This document shows positions 17,122 through 32,647 of a DNA stretch of 32,796 nucleotides, one piece after another (position 1 is the stretch's first letter; every line of letters starts with the position of its first letter). Source of the DNA: an uncultured Gammaproteobacteria bacterium (GTDB lineage Bacteria; Pseudomonadota; Gammaproteobacteria; Pseudomonadales; Pseudohongiellaceae). A program made the translations under genes and the position numbers. The notes beneath the pieces were generated by a model. The model was not told the origin of the DNA. It was given only the letters and a program-made list of their open reading frames with translations, and did no database searches. The stretch is from positions 1 to 32,796 of the forward strand of contig CAISOD010000300.1 in the NCBI GenBank assembly GCA_903887045.1. Reading direction: 5' to 3'.

Positions 17122-18039
17122 CTAGCGGATGCGTGCAAGGATGCCATCAAGCTGGTCGAGCGATCCGTATTTCAGCACAAGCCGTCCTTTTCCATTCGCT
17201 GCGTGCTCAACCACCACCTCGGTTCCCAACTTTTCTGCCAACTCATCCTGCAGCGCCTTGATGTCAGGGTCTTGCTTGTTGTCCGGCCGGCCTGCCGGCT
17301 TTTTGCCGCTTTGCAGCGAGCGGACCAGCGCCTCGGTTTGACGCACAGACAAGCTTTTGGCGATGACAGCGCGGGCAGCCGTCACCTGCTGCGGCCCGTC
17401 CAGTGCCAGTAGGCAGCGGGCGTGGCCCATTTCGAGGTCGCCGTGTTCGAGGAAGGTTCTGACTTCAGGTTGCAGATTCATCAACCTGAGCAAGTTGGCT
17501 ACTGCAGCGCGCGACTTGCCCACAGCGTCCGCCACCTCTTGTTGCGTCAACGCGAACTCGTCCTGCAGGCGTTTCAATGCAATGGATTCCTCCATCGGGT
17601 TGAGGTTTTCACGCTGGATGTTTTCAATCAGGGCCATGGCGATAGCTGCGTTGTCGGGCACTTCGCGAATCAATGCCGGAATCTTGTCGAGGCCCGCCAG
17701 CTGGGCTGCGCGCCAGCGGCGCTCACCAGCAATAATTTCGAATTTGTTGGTGCCGATAGGTCGTACGACGATAGGCTGCATCAGACCTTGCTGCTTGATC
17801 GAGGCTGCCAGCTCTTCCAGCGTTTCGATGCGGATGTCCAGCCGTGGCTGGTATTTCCCTGGTTGGATGAATTCCACCGGTAGCTGACGCAATGACCCAT
17901 CTGTAGGTGGTGCTTCGAGAGCTGGCGCCGAAGATGCTGCAGGAGCGGCTACTTCAGCCGGCGGTTGTGGTTTACCGGTTTTGACGCCTCCCAACAATGC
18001 GTCCAATCCCCTGCCCAGTCCGAGTTTCTTTGTGGCCAT
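17122..18039 (-). CDS. parB: Chromosome-partitioning protein ParB
   Basis: ParB binds parS, spreads along DNA as a CTP-dependent clamp and loads condensin. The 305-residue protein starts at ATG 18039 (MATKKLGLGRGLDALLGG, the ParA-interacting N-terminal motif), with CGAGG 6 nt upstream. A Pro/Ala-rich linker (about 20-50) follows. The CTPase motif GERRWRA is at 105-111, ENIQR at 139-143, a helix-turn-helix at about 164-186 (TQQEVADAVGKSRAAVANLL), and a C-terminal dimerisation domain ends GSLDQLDGILARIR. Its start is 10 nt after the parA stop. Two matching parS sites lie in recF, about 11-12 kb away. Confidence 0.98.
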   Translation of the reverse strand: MATKKLGLGRGLDALLGGVKTGKPQPPAEVAAPAASSAPALEAPPTDGSLRQLPVEFIQPGKYQPRLDIRIETLEELAASIKQQGLMQPIVVRPIGTNKFEIIAGERRWRAAQLAGLDKIPALIREVPDNAAIAMALIENIQRENLNPMEESIALKRLQDEFALTQQEVADAVGKSRAAVANLLRLMNLQPEVRTFLEHGDLEMGHARCLLALDGPQQVTAARAVIAKSLSVRQTEALVRSLQSGKKPAGRPDNKQDPDIKALQDELAEKLGTEVVVEHAANGKGRLVLKYGSLDQLDGILARIR

Positions 18040-18049
18040 TGTTGCCTCG

Positions 18050-18853
18050 TTATGGTTCCTGGGTTTCTGCCGGGGGGGCGGTATCGGTTTCAGAGCCGCG
18101 CCGCAACAGCTCGCCTGCAAGCGCCAGATAGGCTTGGGCTCCACTGGATGCTTTGTCATAGGCAATCACCGGCAGACCATGACTTGGTGCCTCGGCCAGA
18201 CGGATATTCCGCGGAATCACGGTCCGATACAGCACATCATTGAAGTGTTGTTTCAGCTGCTCGGAAACCTGCTGAGTCAGATTGTTGCGTGGATCAAACA
18301 TCGTGCGGACGATGCCCTCAATCACAAGTGCGGGGTTGAGCGACTGCTGGATAGCCGCAATCGTGTTGGACAGCGCCGACAACCCTTCAAGCGCATAGTA
18401 TTCGCATTGCATGGGTATCAGGACCGCATCTGCTGCCACCAACGCGTTCAGCGTCAGCATGTTCAGTGAAGGCGGGCAATCAATCAGTACGAAATCGTAG
18501 TTATCTGTGACAGCTATAAGAGCCGTTCGCAAGCGCTGTTCTTTATTTTCCATTTCCAGCAGCTCAACTTCGGCGGCAGTGAGATCAGCATTGGAGGGCA
18601 GCAGTGCGTAGCCGGCATCGGCCGCTCGCGTGACTGCACCTGCCAGGTGGCTTTTGCCGGTGAGTACATCATAGGTTCCGAGTACGATGCTGTTCTTGTC
18701 GATCCCGCTGCCCATGGTGGCATTCCCCTGCGGATCCAAATCTACCAGCAGCACCCGGCGCTGCATGCGTGACAGGGAAGCCGCGAGGTTGATGGCGGTG
18801 GTGGTTTTTCCCACTCCACCCTTCTGGTTGGCGATAGCAATGATCTTGGCCAC
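18050..18853 (-). CDS. parA: Chromosome-partitioning ATPase ParA
   Basis: ParA is a deviant-Walker ATPase that binds DNA nonspecifically and moves ParB-parS complexes. The 267-residue chain opens with KIIAIANQKGGVGKTTTAIN; the signature Lys lies at 11 and the P-loop at about 11-18. VLLVDLDPQGNATMG and FVLIDCPPSLNMLTLNAL are the other two nucleotide-site motifs. The start codon is GTG 18853, with AGGA 7 nt before it. It lies 79 bp after rsmG and just before parB. The short N terminus without an HTH is the chromosomal type. Confidence 0.98.
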   Translation of the reverse strand: MAKIIAIANQKGGVGKTTTAINLAASLSRMQRRVLLVDLDPQGNATMGSGIDKNSIVLGTYDVLTGKSHLAGAVTRAADAGYALLPSNADLTAAEVELLEMENKEQRLRTALIAVTDNYDFVLIDCPPSLNMLTLNALVAADAVLIPMQCEYYALEGLSALSNTIAAIQQSLNPALVIEGIVRTMFDPRNNLTQQVSEQLKQHFNDVLYRTVIPRNIRLAEAPSHGLPVIAYDKASSGAQAYLALAGELLRRGSETDTAPPAETQEP

Positions 18854-18932
18854 TTGTGCTTCCTACTTCCCGTTCCTGTTTATTGTGTGTCTGCGTTGTA
18901 TGTCTGACTTGTGAGGTTCAGATGTACGGTTG

Positions 18933-19592
18933 TTACTGTGTCATATCCTGGTTTCCGCTCCGCCGGATATCCAGTAGATGCCGAGATACCGTCGTGTAGG
19001 GGACATGCAGAGGATGACTGGCAAACAGTGTGAATCCTGGAGGCAAGTCAGCTATTTCGGCCACAGGGTACTGTCCTTTCATCGCGAGCAGGCGGCCATT
19101 GTCTGCAAGCAGATGTTGGCTACTCTCAATGAAATTGCGCAAAGAGGCAAAAGCTCGGCTGGTGACGATAGCAACTTGCGCAGGTATTGCATAGCCTTCG
19201 GCTCGGGCATGCACAGCATGCACATTGCACAACCCCAGTGCTGTCGCAGCCTGGAACAGGAATCGGGTTTTCTTGCTGTTGCTGTCGATCAGGAACAACT
19301 CAGCTTCAGGTTTGCAGATAGCCAGCACCATACCTGGCAAGCCGGCTCCTGTACCTATATCCGCTATGGTGTTGGCTGTGAAGAATGGCAGTACAGCAAG
19401 CGAATCAATGACGTGAAGCACCAGCATCTCGTCCAGCTTCTGCAGGCCGCTGAGGTTATATGCCTTGTTCCACTTGTACAGTAGGGAGAGATACTGCAGC
19501 AGCTGTTGCTGTTGGTCTGCTGTTATGACCAAGCCAAGTTCAGTAATCGCGGCAGCGAGCTTTTCCACCAGTTCCAGGCTGATCTCAGTCAT
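18933..19592 (-). CDS. rsmG: 16S rRNA (guanine-N7)-methyltransferase RsmG
   Basis: RsmG methylates G527 of 16S rRNA using SAM (formerly gidB). The 219-residue chain has LYKWNKAYNLSGL at about 38-50, HVIDSL, and the SAM-binding loop DIGTGAGLPG at 78-87, then LIDSNSKKTRFL and VTSRAFASL. All are family signatures. It starts 19 nt after the mnmG stop and is likely cotranscribed with it, as gidA-gidB in many bacteria. Confidence 0.97.
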   Translation of the reverse strand: MTEISLELVEKLAAAITELGLVITADQQQQLLQYLSLLYKWNKAYNLSGLQKLDEMLVLHVIDSLAVLPFFTANTIADIGTGAGLPGMVLAICKPEAELFLIDSNSKKTRFLFQAATALGLCNVHAVHARAEGYAIPAQVAIVTSRAFASLRNFIESSQHLLADNGRLLAMKGQYPVAEIADLPPGFTLFASHPLHVPYTTVSRHLLDIRRSGNQDMTQ

Positions 19593-25987: not shown

Positions 25988-26274
25988 TTACGAAGAAGTA
26001 GACAGCAGGCCCGTTTGCGAGATGTAGGATACTCGCTGTTAACGCACAACTTATCCACAGATCATTCACAAAGGCCGGGAAGATTTTTGGTGCAGGCGCA
26101 GGTGGCACAAACGCTGCCTATGAGCGTGAAAGCATCCATAACTGTTTGATTTAAAAGATTAAAATAAATGCAGATGCCGAGATGGCGCACATAGATGGCT
26201 GTGGATAAGTGGCCGTGTGCTGGGTAGAATTTCGCCTCCGCAAGACCATCAAAATAACAACCCAGGGAGCTGAT
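25988..26274. other. oriC: Candidate pseudomonad-type oriC between rpmH and dnaA
   Basis: The divergent gap holds two perfect DnaA boxes in opposite orientation, TTATCCACA at 26051-26059 and TGTGGATAA at 26200-26208. TCATTCACA at 26062-26070 is a further box with one mismatch to TTATNCACA. Between them, 26141-26170 is almost pure A/T (TGTTTGATTTAAAAG and neighbours), a plausible unwinding element. A GATC at 26060-26063 touches the first box. This matches where Pseudomonas origins lie. Three boxes is a modest number, so the region could also be mainly the dnaA control region. Confidence 0.65.
26225..26230 (+). promoter_or_regulatory. Candidate dnaA -10 element next to a DnaA box
   Basis: TAGAAT lies about 50 bp upstream of the dnaA start. 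The perfect DnaA box at 26200-26208 occupies the place of its -35 region, an arrangement that would let DnaA repress its own gene. The -35 hexamer itself is poor. Confidence 0.4.
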
Positions 26275-26280
26275 TTGACT

Positions 26281-27744
26281 GTGAGTGCCACTCTTTGGCA
26301 AAAGTGCGTTGTTTGCCTGAAATCCGAAATGCCATCCCAGCAGTTCAACACCTGGATACGCCCGATTCTGGCCAAAAGCGCAGAAGGCTCGCTTCAGCTC
26401 TATGCCCCCAACCGCTTCGTGCAGGAGTGGGTGCGTGAGCATTTCCTGACTCGTATTACCGAGGTAGTAGCTCGGCTCAGCAAGCCAGCCCCGCGGATCC
26501 TGTTGGAGGTGGCCTCAGCTGACATGCTGGACCATCAAGCCACCATTGCGGAACACTTCGTCGCTGAAGAGACCGCACGAGTAGAGCAGGCTGACAACTC
26601 GGAAGATCTGCTGGAGCGAGCGCTGCGTGAAACCAGCGACCCGGTGTCGTCACCACCAGAGCCCTCCAACACAAAGGGAAGCCGTAACGGCATTATTGCG
26701 GCCTCGACGCGGAAATTGACGTTTCGCGGTGAGCTCAACAAGAACTACACCTTCAATAGTTTCATCCAGGGCAAATCGAACCAGATCGCGCGTGCAGCTG
26801 CCGCCCAGGTCGCCAGCAATCCGGGCGGCGCCTACAACCCACTATTCATATATGGTGGTGTTGGCCTCGGTAAAACCCACCTGATGCATGCAATCGGCAA
26901 TCATCTGCTGCAAAAAAATCCCGCAGCGAAGGTGGTGTACCTGCATTCTCAAACGTTTGTCGGCAGCATGGTGTCGGCATTGCAACTGAATGCCATCAAC
27001 GAATTCAAACGCTACTACCACACGGCGGATGCACTGCTGATCGACGACATTCAGTTTTTCGCCAACAAGGAGCGCTCGCAGGAAGAGTTTTTCCATACGT
27101 TCAATGCCATCTTCGAAAGTGGCCGCCAGATCATCATGACCTGCGACAAGTACCACAGTGAGATCAACGGCCTTGAAGAGCGGCTGAAGTCCCGTTTTGC
27201 TTGGGGACTTTCTGTTGCAGTGGAGCCACCGGACCTGGAAACCCGCGCTGCTATCCTGATGAACAAGGCAGTTCAGGATCAGGTAGTACTTGCTGAAGAA
27301 GCTGCGATGTTCATGGCCCACAAGCTGCGCTCAAATGTGCGGGAGCTGGAAGGCGCATTGAAAAAGGTCATTGCACACGCGCGCTTTCTCGATGAAGAAA
27401 TCACAGTACCTCTTATAAAGGATGCTCTGAAGGACCTGCTGGCGATACAAAGCAAGCTGATCAGCGTCGACAACATCCAGCGCACCGTGGCTGAGTATTA
27501 CAAGATCAAAATGGGCGACATGATTTCGAAGCGCCGCAACCGCTCCATCGCGCGACCGCGCCAAATGGCAATGTGTCTTTCGAAAGAATTGACGAATCAC
27601 AGTCTGCCGGAAATCGGCACTTATTACGGTGGTCGCGACCACACTACCGTGTTGCACGCGTGCCGCACCATCAACGATTTGCGCAAATCTGATACCGACA
27701 TCGAAGAAGACTATCAGAACCTCATGCGCTCCTTGTCGAGTTGA
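26281..27744 (+). CDS. dnaA: Chromosomal replication initiator DnaA
   Basis: DnaA binds DnaA boxes at oriC, melts DNA and loads helicase. The 487-residue chain has domain I at about 1-80 (LWQKCV...[22 protein letters not shown]), a polar linker to about 150, and the AAA+ domain with Walker A GGVGLGKT at 192-199 and Walker B LLIDD at 252-256. The C-terminal DNA-binding domain carries the signature [11 protein letters not shown] at 450-460. GTG 26281 is preferred because family members start MS-x-x-LWQ. However, AGGGAG is 11 nt from it and only 5 nt from an in-frame TTG at 26275, so the TTG start (two residues longer) is a real alternative. Confidence 0.98.
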
Positions 27745-27904
27745 GAACAGCAAGGCAAAATGCAGAAATTGTTGGGTGCCAGGCCGTGGGTACGGCGCCA
27801 CTACACCGGCGGTTGAATCTGCAGTAGGACGACGAACCCTCACGGCACGCAGTCGACACAGACGATCAACAACAACGATCGACAACAACGAAAAGAGAAC
27901 CAGC
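27745..27904 (+). other. dnaA-dnaN spacer with a 13-bp direct repeat
   Basis: This 160-bp spacer contains CGATCAACAACAA (27863-27875) followed directly by CGATCGACAACAA (27876-27888), one base different. An 18-codon frame at 27760-27816 starts with MQKLLGARPW after an AAGG. I regard it as unsupported. No clear dnaN promoter or terminator is seen. Confidence 0.5.
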
Positions 27905-29008
27905 ATGCAATTCGAAATTTCCCGGGAAGCTCTGATCAAACCTTTGCAGTTGGTCACCGGCGTTGTGGAACGCCGGCAGACGCTACCTGTGCTGTCCAAC
28001 GTGTTGCTGGCACTCGATAAGGGTGCACTGGCTTTGACCGGTACTGATCTTGAAGTCGAGCTGATCGGCAAAGTCGCCGTGGATAATGGACAAGGCGATG
28101 GCGAAATCACGGTTCCAGCGCGCAAGCTGATGGACATCTGCAAATCGTTGCCGGAAGACGCCCTGATCAAATTCAGCACCGAAGAGGGCAAAGCCATCAT
28201 TCGGGTCGGTCGGAGTCGCTTCAGCTTGGTTACGTTGCCCGCCAGCGACTTCCCTAGCGTGGAGGAGTCGAAGGGCTCGTTCGAGATCAGTGTCTCGCGG
28301 GTTGCACTGAAGAGCATGCTCGATAACACCAGCTTTGCGATGGCGCAGCAGGATGTGCGCTACTACCTCAACGGCCTGCTGCTTGAGGTGACTCCGGATT
28401 TCCTGCGGGTGGTGGCCACCGACGGGCATCGCCTTGCGCTGCATACTGAAAAAATGGCGGTCGGCGTGGCCTCCAAGCACCAGGTGATCGTGCCACGCAA
28501 AGGCGTCTCTGAGCTGTCCCGCCTGCTGGCGGAGGGCGATGACGAAGTGTCGCTGGTAATTGGCAACAATAATATCCGCGTCAAAACGCGGAACTACACC
28601 TTCACTTCCAAGCTGGTGGACGGCAAATTCCCCGACTACGACCGCGTACTGCCCAAGGGTGGTGACAAGGTGATGATCGGCAACCGCAACGGCCTCAAGC
28701 AGGCCCTCAGCCGCGCCGCTATCCTGTCCAACGAGAAATTCCGTGGTATTCGCCTGATGCTGGCCAAGGATGAATTACGCATCCTTGCCAACAACCCCGA
28801 GCAGGAAGAGGCAGAAGATGTTGTCTCGGTAGAGTACTCGTCATCCCCGCTGGAGATTGGTTTTAACGTCAGCTACCTGATTGATGTACTCAATGTGGTG
28901 ACTACCGAAACCGTACAAATGGTGCTGAGTGATACCAACAGCAGTGTGCTGATGCAAGCAACCGAAGGTAGCCCGGCTCTCTTTGTCGTGATGCCGATGA
29001 GGCTCTGA
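27905..29008 (+). CDS. dnaN: DNA polymerase III beta subunit (sliding clamp)
   Basis: The beta clamp is a ring that tethers polymerase III and many other proteins to DNA. The 367-residue chain starts at ATG 27905 (MQFEISREALIKPLQLVTGV). It has the repeated three-domain clamp fold, with VERRQTLPVLSNVLL, VRYYLNGLLLEV and ATDGHRLALH. The C terminus VVMPMRL is the usual hydrophobic-pocket end. An AAGAGA precedes the start. It follows dnaA by 160 bp and precedes recF by 29 bp. Confidence 0.99.
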   Translation: MQFEISREALIKPLQLVTGVVERRQTLPVLSNVLLALDKGALALTGTDLEVELIGKVAVDNGQGDGEITVPARKLMDICKSLPEDALIKFSTEEGKAIIRVGRSRFSLVTLPASDFPSVEESKGSFEISVSRVALKSMLDNTSFAMAQQDVRYYLNGLLLEVTPDFLRVVATDGHRLALHTEKMAVGVASKHQVIVPRKGVSELSRLLAEGDDEVSLVIGNNNIRVKTRNYTFTSKLVDGKFPDYDRVLPKGGDKVMIGNRNGLKQALSRAAILSNEKFRGIRLMLAKDELRILANNPEQEEAEDVVSVEYSSSPLEIGFNVSYLIDVLNVVTTETVQMVLSDTNSSVLMQATEGSPALFVVMPMRL

Positions 29009-29037: not shown

Positions 29038-30135
29038 ATGCCAACTCTGGCCCGCCTTGCGATCAGCAACCTGCGCAATATCGCTGAGGGTAGTCTTGAG
29101 CCCGCTGCCGGCTTTAACCTGATTTGCGGCAATAATGGCAGCGGTAAAACCTCCGTATTGGAAGCGCTCTACCTGCTGGGCATGGGCCGCTCCTTCCGTA
29201 GCCACCTGCAAAAACCCCTGATCCAGCATGGCCAGCCCCATGCCACCGTCTTTGGCCAGACCACAGACGGCAAGGCCTTAGGGGTACAACGGCCGCTGCG
29301 AGGCCAGCAAATCATCAGGATTGACGGCAAGCCGGCCGAAGGGTTGGCCCAGCTTTCCCGCGCTTTGCCGCTACAGATGATCAATGCCGACACCTTTCTG
29401 CTGTTGGAGGGCAGCCCCGCCGAACGCCGCCACTTCCTGGACTGGGGAGTGTTCCACGTGGAACAACTGTTCATTGATTACTGGCGTCGGGCCCGCCAGG
29501 CACTGGAGCAGCGCAATAGCCTGCTCAGAGCCGAGGCAAGTGCCGCTGAAATCGAGCCGTGGTCGCATGAGCTGGCTCTGAATGCTGGCTATATGGACCA
29601 ATGCCGCCGAGTCTATCTGGACCAGTTCACCCAAGGTTTGGCCCTGAAGCTGGCAGAATTGGGTACTCCAGGCGGCGGCGAGCTGATTCTCAAATACTGG
29701 CGCGGTTGGGACGAAGACACCGACTTGTTTCAACAGCTGCAGCAAGGTTTGGCTCGTGACCGCAAGTACGGCTTTACCACTGTCGGCCCGCACAAAGCGG
29801 ATATCCGCTTTCTATTGAATGGTCAGGATGCTGCGGAACAGCTGTCGCGCGGGCAGCTCAAACTACTGATTTGTATGTTGAAGGTCGTGCAGTCGCAGCT
29901 GCTATTGCAAATGACCGGTATCCGCTGCCTGTTTTTGTTGGACGATCTGCCCGCCGAGCTGGACGCTGACAACCGCACCAAGGTCTGTCAGCTGCTGGGC
30001 GGACTGCAAAACCAATGCTTCCTTACCAGTATAGAGCAAGAAAGTCTGGCACCGATTGTGCTGAAGCAAGCGCAAGCCAGCGGGATGCAGGTGGCATTGT
30101 TCCACGTGAAACATGGTAAGATTGTGGCGCTGTGA
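29038..30135 (+). CDS. recF: DNA replication/repair protein RecF
   Basis: RecF is an SMC-like ATPase that, with RecO and RecR, loads RecA at gaps. The 365-residue chain has Walker A GNNGSGKT at 31-38, the RecF blocks GMGRSFRS and SPAERRHFLDW, the signature-like QLSRGQLKLL, and a Walker B LFLLDDLPAELD. No good ribosome-binding site is seen before ATG 29038. Two parS sites lie inside the gene, encoding VFHVEQ (138-143) and LFHVKH (354-359). Confidence 0.97.
   Translation: MPTLARLAISNLRNIAEGSLEPAAGFNLICGNNGSGKTSVLEALYLLGMGRSFRSHLQKPLIQHGQPHATVFGQTTDGKALGVQRPLRGQQIIRIDGKPAEGLAQLSRALPLQMINADTFLLLEGSPAERRHFLDWGVFHVEQLFIDYWRRARQALEQRNSLLRAEASAAEIEPWSHELALNAGYMDQCRRVYLDQFTQGLALKLAELGTPGGGELILKYWRGWDEDTDLFQQLQQGLARDRKYGFTTVGPHKADIRFLLNGQDAAEQLSRGQLKLLICMLKVVQSQLLLQMTGIRCLFLLDDLPAELDADNRTKVCQLLGGLQNQCFLTSIEQESLAPIVLKQAQASGMQVALFHVKHGKIVAL
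29450..29465. promoter_or_regulatory. parS: parS site 1 (perfect, within recF)
   Basis: TGTTCCACGTGGAACA is a perfect 16-bp palindrome identical to the pseudomonad parS consensus as I know it. It is the binding site for ParB, whose gene is in this window, and lies about 3.2 kb from the dnaA start. Confidence 0.93.
30098..30113. promoter_or_regulatory. parS: parS site 2 (one mismatch, within recF)
   Basis: TGTTCCACGTGAAACA differs by one base from site 1. Its left half is the pseudomonad form and its right half is the GTGAAACA form of the general bacterial parS. It lies 648 bp (216 codons) after site 1, in the same codon phase. Confidence 0.85.

Positions 30136-30178: not shown

Positions 30179-32647
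<2,469 letters not shown>

Follow-up and report, generated by a model that had tools for sequence, protein, structure and literature searches.

Why should recF, a gene close to the replication origin, carry much the same 16-bp palindrome twice in the same codon phase? This question is raised by a window of 32,796 nucleotides (the whole stretch of DNA analysed here), in which recF (29038..30135, plus strand, 365 amino acids) contains two sequences resembling parS, the target of the ParABS segregation system. Site 1 (29450..29465, no strand assigned) is the perfect palindrome TGTTCCACGTGGAACA, with 0 mismatches; it covers recF codons 138–143, which read GTG-TTC-CAC-GTG-GAA-CAA (V-FHV-E-Q). Site 2 (30098..30113, no strand assigned) is TGTTCCACGTGAAACA, with 1 mismatch; it covers codons 354–359 near the C-terminus, which read TTG-TTC-CAC-GTG-AAA-CAT (L-FHV-K-H). 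Against the degenerate 16-bp palindrome consensus TGTTYCACGTGRAACA, both sites have 0 mismatches. Their offsets inside recF, 412 and 1060, are each 1 mod 3, and the spacing between them is 648 bp. A sequence-only reading of this DNA had described two 16-mers in recF that begin at the second base of a codon, specify an FHV core and lie 648 bp apart, and our analysis confirms each of these points. Intragenic parS are not in themselves new, as parS sites also lie within genes in Bacillus subtilis; the likeness of our sites to these and to the intragenic parS of Pseudomonas aeruginosa is their location within coding sequence. Our results indicate that the two 16-mers are very probably the chromosomal parS of the host's ParABS system, set in frame in recF near oriC, where they constrain codons and some residues of RecF.

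No third match was found in the window, even with ≤3 mismatches allowed. Across the 3.39-Mb draft genome (3,388,444 bases in 313 contigs, 99.74% complete), a search for further parS with ≤2 mismatches returned the recF pair and nothing else, and a random scatter of the 16-mers, which the sequence-only reading had named as speaking against it, was not seen. A coincidence has a practically negligible probability and is refuted, for although the shared phase of the two sites would arise by chance alone with a probability of 1/3, the window is expected to contain only 0.13 matches (sd 0.42) when as many as 3 mismatches are allowed, at least two matches occurred in 3 of 100 shuffles, and the sites are widely conserved. 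A reversed version of the pattern, used as a control, matched the genome at 5 places (≤2 mismatches), versus no stray parS-like place beyond the recF pair. Possibly, stray parS-like sites are avoided in the host genome, in so far as such small numbers can tell.

The genes around the two sites are arranged in the usual order of the origin cluster. The segment of 17.1–19.6 kb contains parB (longest ORF, 17122..18165, minus strand; ParB_N 1e-38, HTH_ParB 1e-34, ParB_C 1e-21), parA (18050..18853, minus strand; AAA_31 5.4e-65, CbiA 2.7e-31) and, upstream of parA, rsmG/gidB (18933..19592, minus strand; GidB 4.4e-52). It is followed by DnaA-box-like sites and by dnaA (26209..27744, plus strand, the longest ORF being taken as the gene; Bac_DnaA 7.1e-69), dnaN (27905..29008, plus strand), recF and gyrB (30230..32647, plus strand; DNA_gyraseB and GyrB_insert). 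The start of dnaN was placed at ATG 27905, within an ORF (27629–29008) that contains three DNA_pol3_beta domains. Because the longest ORF of parB shares 116 bases with parA (17122–18853), the true start of parB is probably further in. A putative oriC (26051..26208, no strand assigned) is suggested by the DnaA-box-like sequences TTATCCACA (26051) and TGTGGATAA (26200) just before dnaA. Both parS lie about 3.2–4.1 kb from these two sequences, while parB is about 11–13 kb away from the recF parS. As in type Ia ParABS systems, parA and parB are located on the same chromosome beside a gid gene (17122–19592), and the recF sites combine the 16-bp palindrome with the closeness to oriC of chromosomal parS. 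The identity of recF is supported by Pfam SMC_N (RecF/RecN/SMC; E 2e-27), by RecF relatives in the PDB and by the SMC-like ABC ATPase motifs of its product, with invariant residues G31, K37, S270–G272 and D302–D303, which we take to be the Walker A, signature and Walker B motifs. None of these residues overlaps with site 1 or site 2. The AlphaFold2 model of the window's RecF (28-row alignment, mean pLDDT 95.9) places site 1 where helix 127–141 ends and in the loop after it, and site 2 in strand 352–358.

The spread of the two positions was assessed in several sets of recF genes. The order set comprised 110 of the 189 genomes of the order with a RecF match, among the matches listed; 30 were taken as loci, including the window's own, and 80 were picked to spread over families. 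The class set comprised 100 of the 103 listed rows outside the order (103 being a hand count), with one genome per family; one cut-short recF and two with an internal stop were omitted, and three others with an internal stop were retained. Both sets were drawn from among the matches listed, and they do not include the RecF with the lowest similarity to the query. The named set consisted of the best 80 of 158 loci, and F-H at site 1 is favoured in this set because one of the three search peptides, Rx[FY][LIM]DWGxFH, itself contains F-H. The outgroup consisted of 21 loci from outside the class. Loci L293–L303 duplicate earlier genomes and were left out, and six more repeats were dropped before the tree and the codon and residue analyses. 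The class is taken to be Gammaproteobacteria on the strength of the named matches: the titles of the 80 named loci give 79 Gammaproteobacteria and one Alphaproteobacteria, with a Rhodobacterales label. A metagenome bin labelled Thalassobium (L169) carries both recF parS; it is probably the single locus with the Alphaproteobacteria label, which may be wrong.

At ≤1 mismatch, 95 of the 110 recF in the order set had site 1, 103 had site 2, 94 had both sites and 6 had neither. The corresponding numbers in the class set (n = 100) were 84, 84, 76 and 8, and among the best 80 of the 158 named loci site 1 occurred in 46 and site 2 in 50. Taking all sampled recF together, at least one site was found in 256 of 290 genes and both in 206, while 26 had neither site within 2 mismatches. 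The spacing between the sites ranged from 609 to 684 bp, with a median of 630, and was always a multiple of 3; 463 of the 467 parS inside these 290 genes (≤1 mismatch) were in the window's phase. The recF positions also account for most exact parS genome-wide, with 156 of 195 (80%) in the 110 order genomes and 105 of 120 (88%) in the 100 class genomes, 25 of which had no exact parS anywhere. In a count over 194 genomes of the order, 170 contained at least one exact parS; two was the commonest number (104 genomes), followed by one (48) and none (24). In most families sampled from the class, parS is found at these same two codon positions.

A similar arrangement is known from P. aeruginosa. In the portions of the papers available to us, its closest parS is placed ~4 kb from oriC, in recF (PMC3909081), and parS1 and parS2 are named as lying within recF (PMC5521831), so that this kind of arrangement was already known. 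The likeness extends to the sequences, TGTTCCACGTGGAACC and TGTTCCACGTGGAACA, and to the presence of two parS in recF at ~4 kb from oriC (PMC4368675, PMC5098823, PMC5521831, PMC3909081). The same portions report that ParB of P. aeruginosa binds parS1 and parS2 in vitro and that one origin-proximal site suffices (PMC4368675). In ChIP-seq, ParB was found at four sites with enrichment over >20 kb, and over >8 kb from one site (PMC5098823), while strains without all four origin-proximal parS produced ~25% anucleate cells (PMC4368675, PMC5098823). In contrast to the host genome, which has no other site at ≤2 mismatches, P. aeruginosa is described as having two more high-affinity sites beyond recF, parS3 and parS4. 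Nine of its ten parS are predicted to lie in coding sequence according to the available text of PMC4368675, and parS3 is called intergenic in that of PMC5521831.

Intragenic parS of P. aeruginosa have, by the same account, been recoded without a change in protein, which lowered ParB binding (PMC4368675). When the recoded forms in Table 1 of that paper, TaTTtCAtGTaGAgCC and TGTTtCAtGTaGAgCA, are read in the window's phase, the changes fall at third positions and V/M-F-H-V-E is kept; on our reading, the authors therefore worked in the same frame. Our Pseudomonas loci (L113–L122) have their sites at the same RecF columns, and together with the published recoding they place the window's sites in the same gene, codons and phase as parS1 and parS2. 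In two rows, L122 and L140, site 1 retains its peptide despite 3 mismatches. In L122 (Pseudomonas chlororaphis EA105), which keeps FHVE, this may reflect either a recent loss or a sequence error; L121, under the same species label, has 1 mismatch. By strong analogy with P. aeruginosa, the sites of the window would be functional and of a known kind, with ParB binding and a role in segregation predicted for the host species as well.

Conservation alone does not name the binder, and another protein that reads CACGTG-centred palindromes might bind or modify the element instead. This is extremely unlikely, as ParB of P. aeruginosa binds this very 16-mer at the homologous sites, as far as the accessible text of the papers goes (PMC4368675, PMC5098823), and as the sites are eroded in groups said to be without ParABS, namely the Enterobacteriaceae and Pasteurellaceae (introduction of PMC4368675, seen in part). 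In ten named Enterobacterales (L156, L160, L164, L165, L166, L168, L170, L174, L178 and L182), four of which belong to today's Enterobacteriaceae, site 1 reads FHN or FHH with 7–9 mismatches; at site 2, R, N, T or A replaces His, with 1–4 mismatches and the CACGTG core absent. In Escherichia coli (L343), site 1 encodes FHNE (6 mismatches) and site 2 encodes FTVE (3 mismatches), the latter without a CACGTG core. In Pasteurella testudinis (L150), 7 mismatches separate site 1 from the consensus, and site 2 has 5 and no CACGTG core; in two Orbales, the counts are 9 and 5–6, respectively. The site 2 remnant of the Enterobacterales, TGTTCCGCGTGGAACA, resembles a parS with a broken core, although part of this likeness may be kept by the protein, since F-x-V is a protein pattern too.

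Is it then the DNA or the protein that is conserved at these positions? One alternative is that RecF needs FHV(E/K) for its own function and that the likeness of the DNA to parS is a by-product. The codons argue strongly against this. Among the 290 recF, CAC-GTG-(G/A)AA occurred together in 221 of 227 FHV[EK] at site 1 and in 226 of 238 at site 2, whereas 25.5 and 26.8, respectively, are expected from the codon usage of the same genes. As a control we took the GPH[RK]AD motif, in which the codon for His is free (CAT 75, CAC 53, in 128 of the 290 recF). We also ordered degenerate columns by how constant the codon is for a given residue; 217 columns, each aligned in at least 250 of 303 rows and with a commonest residue present in at least 100, could be compared. 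The seven most codon-invariant columns were, in this order, codons 141, 358, 357, 142, 356, 138 and 140, and in all of them parS includes the free base. Codons 143 and 359 came next, at ranks 8 and 9; their first two bases close the 16-mer, and their free base lies just outside. In the Phe codons, parS allows Y at the third base, and these ranked only 54 and 70. His at codons 143 and 359 was CAT in 89 of 117 and 124 of 164 parS rows, compared to about half gene-wide; this bias in the base after parS hints at selection reaching past the 16 bases.

The third base of the Phe codon lies opposite the first base of the Glu/Lys codon across the dyad, and the two vary together, a leaning that is partly base composition. 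At site 1 we counted TTC with E 151 times, TTT with E 50, TTC with K 3 and TTT with K 28 (odds ratio 28), and at site 2 131, 67, 10 and 38 times, respectively (odds ratio 7.4). Measured against the rest of the gene, TTC with E was in excess at site 1 (151 vs 78.4, z 11.6) and site 2 (131 vs 76.7, z 8.7); TTC with K was depleted at site 1 (3 vs 9.9, z −2.9) and not significantly so at site 2 (10 vs 14.6, z −1.5), where all these z-scores, like the Fisher values, overstate independence because the rows share kinship. Such a leaning would hardly be a product of protein need alone.

The residues tell a more layered story. We compared 303 class rows with and without parS, counting a site as present at ≤2 mismatches, and by a stricter rule that additionally demands an intact CACGTG core, so that rows with CAT in the core no longer count as parS. 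By the first rule, FHV[EK] occurred at site 1 in 232 of 235 rows with parS and 2 of 68 without, and at site 2 in 247 of 261 with and 0 of 42 without; by the stricter rule, the values were 229 of 229 versus 5 of 74 at site 1 and 233 of 233 versus 14 of 70 at site 2. As parS itself encodes these residues, the figures for rows with parS are largely so by construction, and the rows without parS are the informative part. Residue by residue (2-mismatch rule, with versus without parS), site 1 had F in 235/235 versus 67/68, H in 235/235 versus 51/68, V in 232/235 versus 3/68 and E/K in 235/235 versus 22/68; site 2 had F in 261/261 versus 33/42, H in 252/261 versus 4/42, V in 256/261 versus 17/42 and E/K in 261/261 versus 15/42. 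None of the 21 outgroup RecF has parS at either place; at site 1 they have F in 9 and H in none, and at site 2 V in 17 and FHVE in two, written in other codons.

Hence, the expectation that FHV(E/K) would be conserved only in parS-bearing lineages was nearly borne out, the exceptions being the 5 and 14 rows that retain the peptide without an intact core and the two outgroup rows with FHVE. On a tree of 324 rows built without the motif columns, the state of site 1 changed 24 times; in 8 independent, well-supported pairs the peptide tracked site 1 in 6.3 on average and showed the opposite in 0 (sign test, median p 0.031, range 0.016–0.125). Since the peptide is mostly gone where parS is absent, parS has shaped RecF on top of an older scaffold, consisting of the Phe and, at site 2, of F-x-V, the V there being common in the outgroup without parS. 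Judged from these alignments, Phe is not owed to parS, His at site 1 is mostly retained without it, and the DNA constraint adds to the older protein scaffold. The earlier claim that RecF sequence is held at two sites by segregation is thereby supported, and extended to codons as well as residues, except for Phe and, for the most part, the His of site 1. A need of RecF itself for the peptide would account for this Phe and His, for the V of the outgroup and for the rows that keep FHV[EK] without an intact core. Yet the peptide is lost in most rows without a site, and synonymous codons are frozen far past the usage of the same genes. Protein need as the source of the parS likeness is very unlikely, and as a full account of the sites it is refuted by codon usage.

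A different alternative is that both sites are real parS that arose many times independently, the F-x-V scaffold making recF an easy landing place near oriC. The direction of the 24 changes of site 1 state cannot be told from the tree, outgroup sequences, which lack parS, often have V at site 2, and parS also occur at or just past the recF stop. In five of the 42 rows without site 2 (L176, L191, L247, L265 and L279, of which two carry Legionella in the title), a parS (≤1 mismatch) lies at −12 to +57 of the recF stop, and 10 of the 261 rows that keep site 2 bear an extra parS downstream as well. The occurrence of parS at the recF stop in rows without site 2 suggests that sites turn over locally. 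Against many origins stand the same codons and phase in most of the 100 families (one genome each) and the outgroup, with parS at either place in 0 of 21 rows; moreover, a loss takes one or two substitutions while regaining 16 bases would be hard, though this last point is reasoning only. Independent origins are therefore unlikely, and we infer that the sites descend from one ancestral pair.

Some rows complicate this picture. The core contains CAT in each of the 14 rows that hold FHV[EK] at site 2 despite a broken core, a synonymous exchange by which ParB binding may be weakened; those with names are mostly Vibrionales (Vibrio, Photobacterium and others) and Shewanella. A ParB match was obtained in every one of the six genomes, out of 100 in the class set, that have neither site within 2 mismatches (E ≤7e-65 in five, 8.8e-24 in one), with one exact parS elsewhere in two of these genomes and none in four. 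The pair is therefore dispensable in some lineages. Within the order, five genomes without site 1 (L042, L044, L045, L046 and L093) have an exact parS at 3.57–3.90 kb from the recF start, presumably around the end of gyrB. One genome with neither recF site (L092) has two exact parS at 3.7–4.2 kb from the recF start, and two genomes (L085 and L097) keep both recF sites along with one exact parS at ~3.57–3.90 kb.

Probably, the positions in recF were the centromeres of the ancestor of the whole class and are still its principal ones, inherited at the same two codon sites. The V-E/K-H/Q that follows DWGxFH in RecF and the H-x-E/K of its C-terminal strand would then be owed to segregation, and the M-F-(R/T/N/A)-V-E/D of the Enterobacterales, E. 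coli included, would be a decaying centromere fossil. In the mechanism that we propose, ParB, encoded about 11–13 kb away, would load at the two recF parS and spread over the dnaN-recF-gyrB region, as the sequence-only reading had suggested and as the ChIP-seq data of P. aeruginosa lead one to expect; ParA would move the ParB complex, by which the origins separate. Selection for ParB binding would freeze RecF codons and residues, V-E/K-H/Q at site 1 and H, E/K and H/Q at site 2, above the older scaffold of Phe and, at site 2, F-x-V.

In the portions of the P. aeruginosa parS papers available to us, no mention was found of codon phase or of a constraint on RecF, and several other parS papers, likewise available in part, name recF only as a gene of the origin cluster. 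In Caulobacter, the recF-gyrB region was a hot spot for transposon-borne parS, which resembles our case in that parS insertions close to recF-gyrB are tolerated or favoured; it differs in that the insertions were artificial and the cluster of native parS is reported as a hot spot of its own (PMC5815017, seen in part). In the intragenic parS literature, which we covered partly, we found no report of parS kept in gene and codon position across a class. Class-wide conservation of parS in recF and RecF residues set by parS were likewise not found in the open-access literature; the parS survey of Livny et al. (2007) was outside its scope, and a prior report is possible. The breadth and binding force of the double use of recF and parS were, within these limits, not found in print.

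Judging from the sequences compared here, the dual use of recF and parS is widespread in the class and dictates a few amino acids of RecF. Its breadth and the measured double constraint lift the case above a single-species curiosity. It offers a clean example in which a chromosome-maintenance site and a protein have long been written in the same bases, and in which natural losses can serve for comparison. It is also a warning that conserved residues of an origin-proximal protein may reflect a function of the DNA. For many members of the class, the two recF codon stretches are a simple place to seek the centromere, and whether RecF pays for carrying centromeres becomes a testable question.
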